From: Tropicibacter sp. Alg240-R139
Lineage (GTDB): Bacteria > Pseudomonadota > Alphaproteobacteria > Rhodobacterales > Rhodobacteraceae
Direction: 5' to 3'
Length of the DNA stretch: 64,000 bases
Assembly: GCF_900537075.1 (NCBI RefSeq)
Contig: NZ_UNRA01000002.1
Span: 186,001-250,000, forward strand
Part shown: positions 58,867-63,965 of the stretch, in pieces
How positions within the stretch are numbered: position 1 is the stretch's first letter
Layout of the letters: each line of letters begins with the position of its first letter
Notes under the pieces: generated by a model
What the model was told of the DNA's origin: nothing
What the model saw: only the letters and a program-made list of their open reading frames with translations
Databases searched by the model: none
Translations under genes and position numbers: made by a program

Positions 58867-58880
58867 TTGATGTATGTCAA
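58867..58880. promoter_or_regulatory. FNR/NnrR-like box before the Rrf2 gene
   Basis: TTGATGTATGTCAA fits TTGAT-N4-ATCAA with one mismatch and TTG-N8-CAA exactly, the FNR/CRP superfamily sites for FnrL and NnrR. It lies about 60 bp upstream of the Rrf2 start. Confidence 0.4.
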
Positions 58881-58939
58881 ACCGCTTTTTTGCGGGATGT
58901 GCAATAGATGGCGCAGCTAGAGACCGAGGAGGCGTTGCC

Positions 58940-59386
58940 ATGCGTATCACCAAGAGAACCAACATTGCTGTGCGGTTGTTGATGTATTGTGCCGCGCATA
59001 CCGACCGGCTGGTGACAAAATCCGAGATCGCCGAGGTTTGCAACATCTCGGAAAACCATCTGGCACAGGTCATCAACCAATTGAGCCAGCTGAATTTCCT
59101 GAGCACACAGCGCGGTCGCAACGGCGGTATGAGTTTGGCGCGCAGTGCCGATCAGATCCAAATCGGCGACGTGTTTCGCCATATTGAAGGAAATCTGCCT
59201 ATTGCCGAATGTTTTGCGGATGTCGACAACACTTGCCCCCTGACAGACGCCTGTCGATTGCGCGTGGCGCTGAGTGACGCAGCGCAGGCGTTCTATGCCT
59301 CGCTGGATGAGATCACGCTGGAAGCTCTGGTGTGTGACAACACCGACCTGTTGAAGATACTACAACCGATCACCTGCGGGCGCTGA
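58940..59386 (+). CDS. Rrf2 family transcriptional regulator, NsrR-like
   Basis: 148 aa. N-terminal winged helix (about 1-65) with RITKRTNIAVRLLMY and ISENHLAQVINQLSQL. Three cysteines C91, C99 and C105 (ECF, TCP, ACRLR) are the positions that hold the Fe-S cluster in NsrR, followed by the NsrR-like tail FYASLDEITLEALV. NsrR senses nitric oxide through its cluster and represses NO-detoxification genes. The first spacing (C-x7-C) is longer than I recall for E. coli NsrR. The start is ATG 58940 with GAGGAGG at 58926-58932. No target gene is evident next to it. Confidence 0.92.
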   Translation: MRITKRTNIAVRLLMYCAAHTDRLVTKSEIAEVCNISENHLAQVINQLSQLNFLSTQRGRNGGMSLARSADQIQIGDVFRHIEGNLPIAECFADVDNTCPLTDACRLRVALSDAAQAFYASLDEITLEALVCDNTDLLKILQPITCGR

Positions 59387-61915
59387 TCATTCGCGCGCCC
59401 GCAAATTCTGCGCCGGGCTGACGGACAGAGGACGCCAGGCAAAGGCGAGCCCTGCAAGCAGGGTCGCAAACACCCCGCCTGAGACGATGGCTACCGCCGA
59501 GGGCCAAATCACAGTAAAGTCGGTTTCCAGCACATAGTTACTGACGGCCCATCCGCCCAACACACCTGCCAAAAGCGCTATGCAGCCAGCAGCCGCGCCC
59601 AAGAATGCCGAGCGTAGCGCAAAGCTGGACAACACCCGCGCGCGTGTTGCGCCCAAGGTTTTCAGGATCGATGCCTCGTAGGTGCGCGCGGCCTCACCCG
59701 CAGCGGCGGCTCCGATCAGGACCAAAAAGCCGGTCAACAGCGAAGCGCCTGCGCCGTATGATGTGGCTGCTGCCAAACCGGCCAGAACATCCGACACACG
59801 GTCGATGGCGTCTTTCACACGGATTGCAGTGATGTTGGGATAGTCCTCGGCCAGATCGCGCAGGATCTGGGTTTCAGCCTCTTCTTCGGCATAAACGGTC
59901 GAGATGAAACTGTGCGGGGCACCCGCGACGGCAGACGGGTTCATCGTCATCACAAATCCGATCCCGGCAGTCGAGAAATCAACCTCGCGGAATGATGTGA
60001 TGGTCGCATCAATGTCCCGACCAAGGATGTTTACGGTCAGCGTGTCGCCAAGCGAGAGGCCCAGTTCTTCGCCCTCCTCGGCGGCAAAGCTGATTTGTGG
60101 CGGGCCAGTGTAGTCCTTGGGCCACCACTCACCTTCGAGCAGGCGGGTGTTGTCGGGCATATCGGCGGCATAGGTAATGCCCCGGTCGCCTTCGATCACC
60201 CAGTGATCGCCGGCCACTTCGATGGCGGATTCCCCGTTGATCTGGGTGATCACGCCACGCAACATCGGGGCGCTTTCGATCTTGCTGACAGCGGGATCGT
60301 TTTCCAGCCGTTCCATGTAGCCCGGCATCTGATCCTTCTGGATGTCGACAAAGAAATACGAGGGCGCGATGTCGGGCAGGTTGCCGGAAATGGCATTTCG
60401 CAGGTTGCCGTCGATTTGCCCGACGGCGGCCAGTACCGACAGCCCCAGACCGAGCGAAAGAACCACCGAAGCTGCCCCTTCGCGCGGGTCCGAGATGGCT
60501 GCGAATGCCCATCGGAGCGCGGGTTTGCCGCGTGCCGGACGCGACCCAAGTCGCGCCAGCTTGCGCAAGCCGATTGCCGAAAGCGAAAGCAGCAGCAACG
60601 TGCCAATCAAGCCACCTGTGGTCCAAAGCGTCAATTCAGCCGAACCGCTGAACCAGGCCGCCAAACCGATCAGCAACGCCAAACCGCTCAAAGTCGCAAG
60701 AAGATACCCAAAGCGCGGTAGCAGCCGGGCGCGGCTGAGCGCGTCGCGGTAGAGCGCAGCGGGGCCTATCTCGGCCGTGCGCGACAGAGGCCAGAGGGTG
60801 AACACAAACGCAGTGAGCAAGCCATAAAGCGCAGCTTCGGCTAGCGGGCCGGGGTAGATTGAAAAGGCCGCCGGAATTGGCAAGCGGGCCTCGATAATTG
60901 GGGCCAGCAGGACAGGCACAAGGCCGCCCAACAACAAGCCCAGGGCTATGCCCAGGATCGACAGGGCGCCGATTTGCAGGAAGTAGGTTTGGAAGATAGT
61001 GGCCCGGTCTGCTCCGAGTGTGCGGAAAGTGGCAATGGTGCTGGTTTTCCCTGCTAGATATGACCGTACAGCGGCAGACACGCCGACGCCGCCAACGGCC
61101 AGGCCAGCCAAGCCCACCAAAATTAGAAACGCACCCAAACGGTTTACGAATTCAGCTACGCCTGGCGCACCATTGCGGGAATCGGTCCAGCGCATGCCCG
61201 ATGTAGTGAACGCATCTTTGGCCTGTTCGGATAAGATCGGCAGGTCTGCCTGTGGCGGCAGGTCCATGCGATACTTGGTCGAATAAAGCGATCCGGGTAC
61301 GAGCAACCCGGAGTCCTGCAGGTCTGTCGTGTACAACAAGGTTCGAGGGCCCAGACCAAAACCATCTGCGGCGGCATCTGGTTCGCGTGTGAGCTCTGCC
61401 ATCAGAACAAAGTCTTGTGTGCCCAGTCGAAAGGTTTCCCCTGGTGTCAAACCCAGACGGTCCATCAAAACGCGGTCCATCACGGCACCCGGCAAACCGC
61501 CGGTTCCATCCAAGGCGGTGGGCAGCGGCATGTCTGGGTTCAACTCCACCGTGCCCACCAGCGGGTATAGCTCATCGACCGATTTCACCTGTGTCAGACC
61601 GCGTTCGGTAACACCGTCATTGTCAACCACGGCCATAGAGCGAAAATCGGTCACCTCGGAAACCTGAGTTGCATTCTCGGCCATCCAGGCGCGTTCCAGG
61701 TCAGAGGCAAACCGATATGTGAACTCCATCTGCGCGTCGCCGCCCAGAATGGCGGATCCTTCGCGTGTTAGTCCCTCGGTGATACCGGCACGGATCGAAC
61801 CGACCGCAGCGATGGCAGCGACACCAAGGGCAAGACACGCAAGGAAGATGCGAAAGCCGTGCAGGCCGCCGCGCAACTCTCGGGCCGCAAAGCGGGAAGC
61901 TAGGCGCAGGCTCAT
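59387..61915 (-). CDS. FtsX-like ABC permease (YbbP/LolC-type)
   Basis: 842 aa with about ten membrane helices: one N-terminal, a large periplasmic domain (~45-250), a central block of helices, a second periplasmic region and a C-terminal FtsX domain (~720-835, GFLVLIGAAAAGEAARTYEASILKTLGA in part). This is the MacB/YbbP-type duplicated FtsX architecture. These mechanotransmission-type ABC systems move lipids, peptides or work on the envelope; the substrate is unknown. The ATG overlaps the ATPase stop by 4 bp, and the stop abuts the convergent Rrf2 stop. Confidence 0.92.
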   Translation of the reverse strand: MSLRLASRFAARELRGGLHGFRIFLACLALGVAAIAAVGSIRAGITEGLTREGSAILGGDAQMEFTYRFASDLERAWMAENATQVSEVTDFRSMAVVDNDGVTERGLTQVKSVDELYPLVGTVELNPDMPLPTALDGTGGLPGAVMDRVLMDRLGLTPGETFRLGTQDFVLMAELTREPDAAADGFGLGPRTLLYTTDLQDSGLLVPGSLYSTKYRMDLPPQADLPILSEQAKDAFTTSGMRWTDSRNGAPGVAEFVNRLGAFLILVGLAGLAVGGVGVSAAVRSYLAGKTSTIATFRTLGADRATIFQTYFLQIGALSILGIALGLLLGGLVPVLLAPIIEARLPIPAAFSIYPGPLAEAALYGLLTAFVFTLWPLSRTAEIGPAALYRDALSRARLLPRFGYLLATLSGLALLIGLAAWFSGSAELTLWTTGGLIGTLLLLSLSAIGLRKLARLGSRPARGKPALRWAFAAISDPREGAASVVLSLGLGLSVLAAVGQIDGNLRNAISGNLPDIAPSYFFVDIQKDQMPGYMERLENDPAVSKIESAPMLRGVITQINGESAIEVAGDHWVIEGDRGITYAADMPDNTRLLEGEWWPKDYTGPPQISFAAEEGEELGLSLGDTLTVNILGRDIDATITSFREVDFSTAGIGFVMTMNPSAVAGAPHSFISTVYAEEEAETQILRDLAEDYPNITAIRVKDAIDRVSDVLAGLAAATSYGAGASLLTGFLVLIGAAAAGEAARTYEASILKTLGATRARVLSSFALRSAFLGAAAGCIALLAGVLGGWAVSNYVLETDFTVIWPSAVAIVSGGVFATLLAGLAFAWRPLSVSPAQNLRARE

Positions 61916-62607
61916 TCCGCGGCCTCTTGCACAGCGTTCCGATCAATTCGCCCGTCGCGCAAGCGAATCACCCGGTCACAGCGCGCCGCCAGTGCGCGGG
62001 AGTGTGTGACTAGAACTAGCGTCGCTCCATGACGGTCACGCAAGTCAAAGAGTAGGTCCATGATGGCATTTCCGTTGGTGCCGTCCAAGTTGCCGGTGGG
62101 TTCATCGGCCAACAGGATGTCAGGGCGTGGTGCAATGGCTCGGGCCAGGGCGACCCGTTGTTGTTCACCGCCAGACATCTGGGTTGGATAGTGATGGCTA
62201 CGGTGAGCTAGCCCCACGGCTTCGAGTTCTGCTTCGGCGCGGTCAAATGCGTCGCGATGCCCTGCCAGCTCCAGCGGCGTCGCGACGTTTTCCAAGGCAG
62301 TCATCGTGGGGATCAGGTGAAAATTTTGAAACACCACTCCCATGTGCGCCCGGCGAAATGTGGCGAGTTGATCCTCGGACATGTCTGTCAGGTTTTGCCC
62401 GAGGGCGGTTATCGTGCCGCCGGTTGCGTGCTCCAACCCGCCGATCAGCATCAATAGCGAAGATTTGCCTGAACCGGACGGCCCGATCATTCCCACAGTC
62501 TCGCCCTTAGCGACCTCCAATGAGATGCCGTGTAGAATATCCACCCGTCCGGCATTGCCATCCAGTGACAAACACGCATTTTGGAGGGAGAGAATGGGCT
62601 GTGTCAT
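61912..62607 (-). CDS. ABC transporter ATP-binding protein (YbbA/LolD type)
   Basis: 231 aa single ABC cassette: Walker [12 protein letters not shown], signature [14 protein letters not shown] and Walker [13 protein letters not shown], followed by switch His THSRALA. The sequence is LolD/MacB-like and pairs with the FtsX-type permease directly downstream. Divergent from the arylesterase gene, the same layout as ybbA-ybbP-tesA in E. coli. Confidence 0.94.
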
Positions 62608-62658: not shown

Positions 62659-63291
62659 ATGCGCAAGGTTCTGTTTGCTGGGCTTTTTGTCTTGTGCGGT
62701 TTTCCGGCAACGGCGGATCCGCTGGTGGTCGCCGCTTTGGGCGACAGCCTGACCCAAGGATATGGCCTGCCGCAGGGACAGGGGTTCGTGCCACAGCTGC
62801 AAGGCTGGCTGGATGAACAGGGCGTCGAGGTGAAATTGATCAACGCGGGTGTTTCAGGCGATACAACCGCCGGTGGCGCCGCTCGGGTGGCTTGGACATT
62901 AACACCAAACGTCGACGCGATGATCGTGACGCTTGGCGGCAACGACATGCTGCGCGGGATCGACCCGGCTGCAGTGCGTCAGAACCTGACGACGATCCTG
63001 ACGGCTGCGCGCGATGCAGATGTTCAGGTTCTGCTGGTCGGCATGCAAGCGCCGGGCAATTATGGTCCCGAGTACAAAGCGGACTTCGACAACGCGTATG
63101 TTGAGTTGGCCGATGAGTTCGGGGTGCTTCTGGCCGAGAGCTTCTTTCAAGGCTTCCCAGTGAACGATGATCCGTCCGCTGTACAGCAATGGATGCAGGC
63201 CGACGGCATTCACCCGAATCCCGAGGGTGTGACTCTGATCGTAGAAGCGTTGGGGCCGCAAGTTTTGGACCTGGTCGATGCTGCGAAGTGA
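62659..63291 (+). CDS. Periplasmic GDSL arylesterase / lysophospholipase (TesA-like)
   Basis: 210 aa SGNH hydrolase. Signal peptide ~1-19 (cleaved after ATA). Blocks: ALGDSLTQGYG (nucleophile Ser), NAGVSGDTTAGG (Gly), LGGNDMLRG (Asn) and DGIHPN (Asp-His). It hydrolyses esters/thioesters of fatty acids in the periplasm. ATG at 62659 begins the signal peptide; the longer frame from 62581 overlaps the divergent ABC gene. The ybbA-tesA divergence is as in E. coli. Confidence 0.92.
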   Translation: MRKVLFAGLFVLCGFPATADPLVVAALGDSLTQGYGLPQGQGFVPQLQGWLDEQGVEVKLINAGVSGDTTAGGAARVAWTLTPNVDAMIVTLGGNDMLRGIDPAAVRQNLTTILTAARDADVQVLLVGMQAPGNYGPEYKADFDNAYVELADEFGVLLAESFFQGFPVNDDPSAVQQWMQADGIHPNPEGVTLIVEALGPQVLDLVDAAK

Positions 63292-63347: not shown

Positions 63348-63965
63348 ATGCCGGGGCGTTTTTTTCTGACCACGCCGATGACAGAGGTGGCTGAGCAGTT
63401 GTGCGTTCCGGTCGGCGACCTGACCGATGAACCGCCGCGCCAAAACATCCAGCCGGGTCAAGACATCGTGGTACTGACCCCCCTGGGATTGACCCAAATG
63501 CGATGGGGTATGATCCCTGTCGGTCGGGTCAATGCAAGGGGACGTCCAGTGATGGAGACCATCATCAACGCCCGCTCGGAGACGGTGTTCGACAAGTCGG
63601 CGTTTGACGGGGTTGGCCGGGCCATCATCCCGGTGGATGGGTGGTATGAATGGACAGGCGAGAAACGACGCAAAACCACTTGGCGCCTTTCTGCCAGAGA
63701 TGGGCGGCCGCTATTTTTTGCTGCCATCACAGACGTCTGGATTGCTCCGGGTGGGTTGCAGGTTCCGCAAGCTGCAGCTGTTACCTGTGAACCGAACGCC
63801 GATGTCGAACCCATCCACCACCGGATGGGTGTCATCCTGAAGGAAGATGATGTGCAAACTTGGTTAACTGGAGAAGAGGGCGTCGCCCGCGATCTGATGC
63901 GTCCATTGCCAAATGGCCTTCTGGACATCCGCGAGGCAAAAGATGTGAACTGGTCAAGCCCATAG
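63348..63965 (+). CDS. SRAP (HMCES/YedK) family protein with Pro in place of catalytic Cys2
   Basis: 205 aa SOS-response-associated-peptidase domain. Normal members start MCGRF, where Cys2 forms a thiazolidine crosslink with abasic sites in single-stranded DNA after Met removal. This one starts MPGRFF (codons ATG CCG GGG CGT), so the mature N-terminus would be Pro. Other active-site residues appear conserved: N75 and R77 (NARSET), E101 (GWYEW), His157/158 (IHHRMG). ATG at 63348 is clearly the start by family alignment. The role is uncertain: an N-terminal proline could still form a Schiff base with an abasic site, or the protein may be inactive. It stands alone with a strong terminator after it. 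Confidence 0.9.
   Translation: MPGRFFLTTPMTEVAEQLCVPVGDLTDEPPRQNIQPGQDIVVLTPLGLTQMRWGMIPVGRVNARGRPVMETIINARSETVFDKSAFDGVGRAIIPVDGWYEWTGEKRRKTTWRLSARDGRPLFFAAITDVWIAPGGLQVPQAAAVTCEPNADVEPIHHRMGVILKEDDVQTWLTGEEGVARDLMRPLPNGLLDIREAKDVNWSSP

Follow-up and report, generated by a model that had tools for sequence, protein, structure and literature searches.

Proline takes the place of the catalytic cysteine at residue 2 of a SRAP family protein encoded by Tropicibacter sp. Alg240-R139, and it is fixed in a clade of Rhodobacterales proteins which have kept the other catalytic residues of the family. By analogy with characterized enzymes, we lean towards the view that these Pro2 SRAP proteins form an iminium with abasic sites, which would proceed to beta-elimination or remain a reversible capture, without a stable crosslink.

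The Pro2 SRAP gene and its conservation

In the window, by which the whole analyzed stretch of 64,000 nucleotides is meant, an open reading frame on the plus strand (MPGRFFLTTPMTEV...) comprises 205 codons followed by a stop and specifies a protein with the N-terminus MPGRFF. Residues 1-195 match the Pfam family SRAP (PF02586) with 135.4 bits at a curated cut-off of 27.1, and the coordinates 63348-63965 are exact. The MPGRF start in a SRAP/HMCES protein, which had been claimed in a sequence-only reading of this DNA, is thus confirmed. SRAP was the sole Pfam family detected at E <= 0.001; the domains of Fpg/Nei enzymes, an N-terminal Fapy-glycosylase domain, H2TH, and a zinc ribbon, were absent at this threshold. 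NCBIfam yielded a single match, PRK09951, with 48.1 bits, far below its cut-off of 349.

The chemistry of the family is known from YedK. Cys2 uses its alpha-amine to attack the aldehyde of the abasic (AP) site, after which the thiol closes a thiazolidine; Glu105 drives formation of the Schiff base, and Glu105 together with His160 opens the sugar (excerpts of PMC9436759). In the available portions of the literature the SRAP cysteine is described as absolutely conserved and always residue 2 (PMC3765255) or as invariant (PMC9436759). With the sequence from E. coli K-12 as the YedK reference, the following features were assigned to the Pro2 gene.

63348..63965, plus strand: Pro2 SRAP-fold protein, 205 aa (ORF, Pfam, alignment, structure model)
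63351..63353, plus strand: codon 2, proline replacing Cys2 of the SRAP family (N-terminus reads, codon tally)
63525..63551, plus strand: clade-specific loop RVNARGRPV (residues 60-68), in the position taken by W67-W68 in YedK (alignment)
63567..63569, plus strand: Asn74, equivalent to YedK N75 (alignment with E. coli YedK)
63573..63575, plus strand: Arg76, equivalent to YedK R77 (alignment with E. coli YedK)
63648..63650, plus strand: Glu101, equivalent to YedK E105, in YedK the general acid/base of Schiff base formation (alignment)
63816..63818, plus strand: His157, equivalent to YedK H160, in YedK involved in ring opening (alignment)

Relatives were collected from a species-genome collection, and the best 80 of 137 were kept (best-segment identity 58-86%). 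Pro-Gly-Arg occupies residues 2-4 in all 80. The N-terminus reads MPGR in 71 of them, so that the MPGR-starting paralogues of Rhodobacteraceae, which had been mentioned in the sequence-only reading, are real; seven read VPGR with a GTG start and one LPGR with a TTG start. In the remaining one, L061 from a MAG, Pro-Gly-Arg is present without a start codon immediately 5' of it. Codon 2 of the other 79 is CCG (45), CCC (22), CCT (8), or CCA (4). Since all four proline codons are used, the residue is conserved and not merely the DNA, and chance or a sequencing error as the source of Pro2 is ruled out by these codons and the 80 relatives.

When the window protein is included, all 81 proteins agree at 47 alignment columns, among them P2, G3, R4, N33, P36, W53, N74, R76, E101, T146, H157, and R159. 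Random residues at position 2, for which the relatives were checked, were not found; Pro2 is fixed in the clade, with Glu and His invariant throughout. The catalytic Asn, Arg, Glu, and His had been named as kept, and the equivalents of YedK N75, R77, E105, and H160 are indeed present in all 81 proteins, the numbers given then being those of YedK for N75 and R77 and the window protein's own for E101. Like YedK and HMCES, the clade has the SRAP fold with these four equivalents, and it has also kept the positions R4, N37, P40, T149, and R162. It differs from them in Pro for Cys2, the loss of Trp67, and the RVNARGRPV loop, and YedK residues 208-215 are unmatched near the C-terminus of the Pro2 protein. 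Mean net charge is barely different, -2.6 in 80 Pro2 versus -1.8 in 46 Cys2 proteins (repeats included).

Another thiol is offered by Cys147 (63786-63788), which adjoins the T149 equivalent and is invariant in the 81 Pro2 proteins. As a relocated catalytic thiol it was rejected, because 12 of 44 sampled Rhodobacterales Cys2 proteins likewise have cysteine here, and the deep member G198a has valine. The family name and an early proposal (excerpt of PMC3765255) would make the product an autoproteolytic protein or peptidase; the proposed peptidase, however, requires the cysteine that is absent here, and this reading is hardly credible.

Distribution and origin of Pro2

A clade profile built from 24 Pro2 proteins was searched against 244 Rhodobacterales genomes, and the scores split cleanly. 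Matches of at least 305 bits were obtained in 54 genomes, the window's own included, G198 gave two matches with 238 and 146 bits, and all other matches listed reached at most 130.2 bits. The best 30 loci of this search, again including that of the window, start with MPGR (28) or VPGR (2). When 385 genomes drawn from the class were searched, only four exceeded 133.7 bits, all from the window's own family and all found in the Rhodobacterales search.

The patchy occurrence in 54 of 244 genomes, and one copy with an internal TAG in G032, could indicate a degenerate paralogue heading for loss. This is highly unlikely, as 53 of the 54 copies are free of internal stops and, among the 81 proteins, 47 columns show no variation at all, in contrast to others that vary freely. 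In the G032 copy (L116, G032:C5:222592-223167) the TAG replaces the conserved Trp of RWG, and it represents a pseudogene or a sequencing error.

Residue 2 was also read across the family. Among the fetched loci, 262 SRAP N-termini were readable (gene repeats included): 146 with CGR, 12 with another Cys context, 103 with PGR, and one with a misplaced start (L284). These and 25 further matches without a readable start, 14 of them Pro2 loci (including the L116 fragment that follows the TAG) and the other 11 divergent or partial, make up the material. Of the PGR matches, 101 bear the NARGRPV loop; the remaining two both stem from the second Pro2 gene of G198. Counted as distinct N-termini, 153 have Cys and 89 Pro. 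Cysteine is present in all 18 Rhodobacterales matches sampled at scores of no more than 130.2 bits. The same is true of 28 of 29 further SRAP matches, the 29th being a member of the Pro2 clade, and of all 40 SRAP matches sampled from other Alphaproteobacteria. Outside the Pro2 group the readable second residue is therefore always Cys, save in the second G198 gene, and against this near-universal background Pro suggests a switch rather than drift. Eight divergent SRAP proteins (L266, L267, L268, L270, L273, L274, L277, L281) start with MCNL instead of MCGR and still have Cys2; their EW motif is altered, with Glu kept and Trp not.

The tree was calculated from 73 proteins, 20 Pro2 and 53 Cys2, after removal of residues 1-2. 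All 20 Pro2 proteins, the second G198 protein included, form one Rhodobacterales clade (100/98), which adjoins a Rhodobacterales Cys2 clade (94/83, below the starred level). On this tree, for which the bootstrap had not fully settled, the state of residue 2 needs one change from Cys to Pro. Most simply, Cys2 was thus replaced by Pro once, in Rhodobacterales. The two Pro2 genes of G198 complicate the picture:

L115:4274-4864: Pro2 gene of G198
L115:6925-7533: second Pro2 gene of G198, with starts about 2.7 kb apart

As in the clade, the W67-W68 positions of the second protein are Gly and Arg, and its W103 position is Trp (Trp99). The three extra loop residues are missing from it, and its C-terminus is of the Cys2 type. 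It may represent an intermediate form between the Cys2 and Pro2 types. Its placement with the Cys2 group was not rejected in an AU test (p-AU 0.12), and a second, separate origin of Pro2 is possible.

A mobile origin of the clade was considered and dropped. By tblastn, matches were obtained in 1560 plasmid and 50 phage records, all below 60% identity and the best among those listed at 37.6%; viral contigs contributed 32 relatives with at best 37% identity. No mobile clade member was recognized among them.

Most genomes with the Pro2 gene have more than one SRAP match. By Pfam, at least two were counted in 48 of the 54 and one in six, short fragments being included in these counts, and a second match reached at least 200 bits in 39. 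Tropicibacter sp. Alg240-R139 has two, the Pro2 gene and an MCGRF (Cys2) copy at G000:C2:662190 on the same contig, 413 kb away; a normal MCGRF paralogue elsewhere in the genome, raised in the sequence-only reading, is therefore present. With another SRAP match in those 48 genomes, the Pro2 protein could be a non-covalent reader, its abasic-site pocket kept for binding or shielding and Pro2 selected against crosslinking, with no consequential iminium. The invariance of R4, R76, and R159 would fit such a role, and loss of the thiol should abolish the stable crosslink, judging from the excerpted mechanism (PMC9436759). To eliminate the thiol, any small residue would do, yet only Pro occurs, and the invariant Glu101 and His157 correspond to YedK residues described in the same excerpts as catalytic rather than binding. 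In six of the 54 genomes, moreover, the Pro2 gene is the sole SRAP match. Overall, we regard a non-covalent reader as rather unlikely.

The changed loop and the gene neighbourhood

The second feature setting the clade apart is the RVNARGRPV loop. Eight of its residues are identical in 81 of 81 proteins, and the second, residue 61, is V in 71, K in seven, and R in three. At the YedK W67 position Trp is found in 44 of 44 Rhodobacterales Cys2 proteins, which had been preselected for Cys2 and do not constitute a count of residue 2, and in 39 of 40 other sampled Cys2 proteins; the Pro2 clade has Gly in 79 and Ala in two. The W68 position is Arg in all 81. Compared with the 44 Rhodobacterales and 36 of the 40 other Cys2 proteins, the loop is three residues longer. 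At the W103 position the clade has Trp, and the 44 Rhodobacterales Cys2 copies have Phe. From the YedK-DNA structures we take the W67-W68 region to contact DNA next to the abasic site. With this region changed and a new loop in place, the DNA contact may be altered or gone, and the substrate may differ. According to the alignments, the presumed nucleophile and the neighbouring surface changed together, and the residues assigned to ring opening and Schiff base formation stayed.

An AlphaFold model based on a 24-row alignment had a pLDDT of 88.1. Confidence was lowest in residues 51-90 (block means 63-76), where Asn74, Arg76, and the new loop are located. Foldseek gave 21 matches at E <= 0.001, every one a SRAP structure, among them 2f20 (E 5.4e-14) and 8d2m (E 6.9e-13). 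In the available part of PMC3765255, 2f20, 1zn6, 2bdv, and 2aeg are named as SRAP structures.

The genes next to the Pro2 gene in the window, whose kinds were confirmed by Pfam, are the following.

62659..63291, plus strand: TesA-like GDSL hydrolase, immediately 5' of the Pro2 SRAP gene (Pfam, loci comparison)
61912..62607, minus strand: YbbA/LolD-like ABC ATPase, divergent neighbour (Pfam)
59387..61915, minus strand: YbbP-like FtsX-type permease, divergent neighbour (Pfam)

Of 80 loci, 67 have a TesA-like hydrolase gene immediately upstream in the same orientation, and 13 lack this neighbour. The spacing to the SRAP gene is -1 to 4 bases in 53 of the 67, and 56 bases in the window. Matches to the YbbA/LolD-like ATPase were detected in 78 of the 80 loci, some of them other ABC genes, and matches to the permease in 67. 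A gene for an Rrf2-type regulator (58874-59386 in the window) adjoins that of the YbbP-like permease and was matched in 28 of the 80 loci. RidA-like genes (imine deaminase family, named by eye) lie near the Pro2 gene at L064:4504-4902, L070:4527-4919, and L069:3919-4311, and a ParA-like gene is found downstream in some loci; being matched in only three and five of 80 loci, respectively, both are too few to serve as a functional clue.

The neighbours are envelope-lipid genes. E. coli has a lipid hydrolase complex, YbbAP-TesA. The likeness of the Pro2 locus to it is confined to the gene neighbourhood, and the paper describing the E. coli complex makes no use of the word SRAP. In contrast to YedK and HMCES, the Pro2 genes have non-SOS neighbours, and the neighbourhood examined contains no pointer to DNA repair. 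The LexA box of Alphaproteobacteria is GTTC/GAAC with a 7-base spacing. Within 250 bases upstream such boxes were found in one of 80 loci, which is chance level (mean of shuffled sequences 0.74). Mainly because the gene context lacks a link to DNA repair, our confidence in the proposed iminium chemistry at abasic sites is moderate.

With a TesA-like hydrolase directly upstream in most loci, YbbA/YbbP-like genes alongside, and the Trp67 region replaced, a switch of substrate could be envisaged, in which the iminium formed by Pro2 with the aid of Glu101 would involve a small aldehyde, or some other carbonyl compound connected with lipid turnover, instead of DNA. Against this, the positions surrounding the site that are common to Cys2 proteins are kept, and the 13 loci without the hydrolase neighbour remain unaccounted for by it. 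In addition, the hydrolase has a signal-like N-terminal stretch, as judged by eye, and the Pro2 SRAP has none, so that the two probably reside in different compartments. Such a switch is clearly improbable in our estimation.

Predicted chemistry and its implications

One precedent for iminium formation at abasic DNA is an engineered protein. YedK C2A, without the thiol, forms a Schiff base via its N-terminal amine, which can be trapped with borohydride (rate constant 1.7, unit unstated in the excerpt), and it cleaves AP-DNA (rate constant 0.05, unit likewise unstated); adding E105Q slows Schiff base formation 10-fold and cleavage 25-fold (excerpts of PMC9436759). The Pro2 clade looks like a natural version of this change. 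As in YedK C2A, whose Schiff base with abasic DNA is represented by PDB 8d2m, the thiol is gone and Glu and His are kept. Both would offer a free N-terminal alpha-amine, in the Pro2 protein presumably only after removal of Met1. They differ in the kind of amine, which is primary and belongs to Ala in the laboratory mutant C2A, and is secondary in Pro2, a residue fixed in a natural clade.

The second precedent is provided by the Fpg/Nei enzymes MutM and Nei2, which share with the Pro2 SRAP an N-terminal Pro after Met1, in the latter the proposed nucleophile for C1'. Fpg/Nei enzymes form their Schiff base through this proline. In Nei2, Pro2 is required for AP lyase activity and P2C is inactive (excerpt of PMC11323726). 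The Pro2 SRAP has no Fpg/Nei domain and no known glycosylase part, and its residue 3 is Gly versus Glu3 in Nei2.

Given Pro2, the intact Glu and His, and the precedents of YedK C2A and Nei2, an iminium that is released by hydrolysis or beta-elimination is expected. Met1 removal would expose Pro2, and its secondary amine would attack the ring-opened aldehyde of the abasic site, aided by Glu101 and His157 as in YedK. As the thiol is absent, the iminium should not be closed to a thiazolidine. It could be hydrolyzed, making the capture reversible, or undergo beta-elimination, making the protein an AP lyase. The Pro2 SRAP would then combine a SRAP scaffold with the lyase reaction known from Fpg/Nei, and suicide crosslinking would not be its mode of action; in this explanation Met1 removal, the Pro2 chemistry, and the substrate are all inferred. 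The lyase or reversible sensor proposed in the sequence-only reading is supported in part: its chemistry is backed by the excerpted data on YedK C2A (PMC9436759) and Nei2 (PMC11323726), and in view of the changed loop and the lipid-hydrolase context the natural substrate may be another one. A need for an extra AP lyase is not obvious, since both Fpg and Nth are encoded in the window's own genome; the Pro2 SRAP as a substitute for a missing lyase was rejected on the same grounds.

In a more far-reaching form, about which we are evenly divided, the Pro2 SRAP converged on the N-terminal-proline catalysis of Fpg/Nei and became a turnover AP lyase or a reversible AP-site sensor; its ancestor would have been a suicide crosslinker, in which one residue was exchanged and a new substrate loop was acquired. 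In its boldest version, the target would be another aldehyde, either 3'-unsaturated ends or one derived from lipids beside TesA.

A search of open-licence literature, excluding preprints and covering titles, terms, and abstract starts, revealed no paper on any Pro2 SRAP among the matches listed. The fixed Pro2 clade contradicts the absolutely conserved or invariant SRAP cysteine of the published descriptions, as worded in the excerpts (PMC3765255, PMC9436759), and it constitutes a natural experiment in which Schiff base chemistry is separated from thiazolidine crosslinking. If the proposed reading is true, it would add an AP lyase or sensor acting through an N-terminal proline on a fold for which none is known, and one that could easily be tested side by side with the Cys2 paralogue from the same cell. 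It would also caution against labelling Pro2 SRAP genes as peptidases or crosslinkers.
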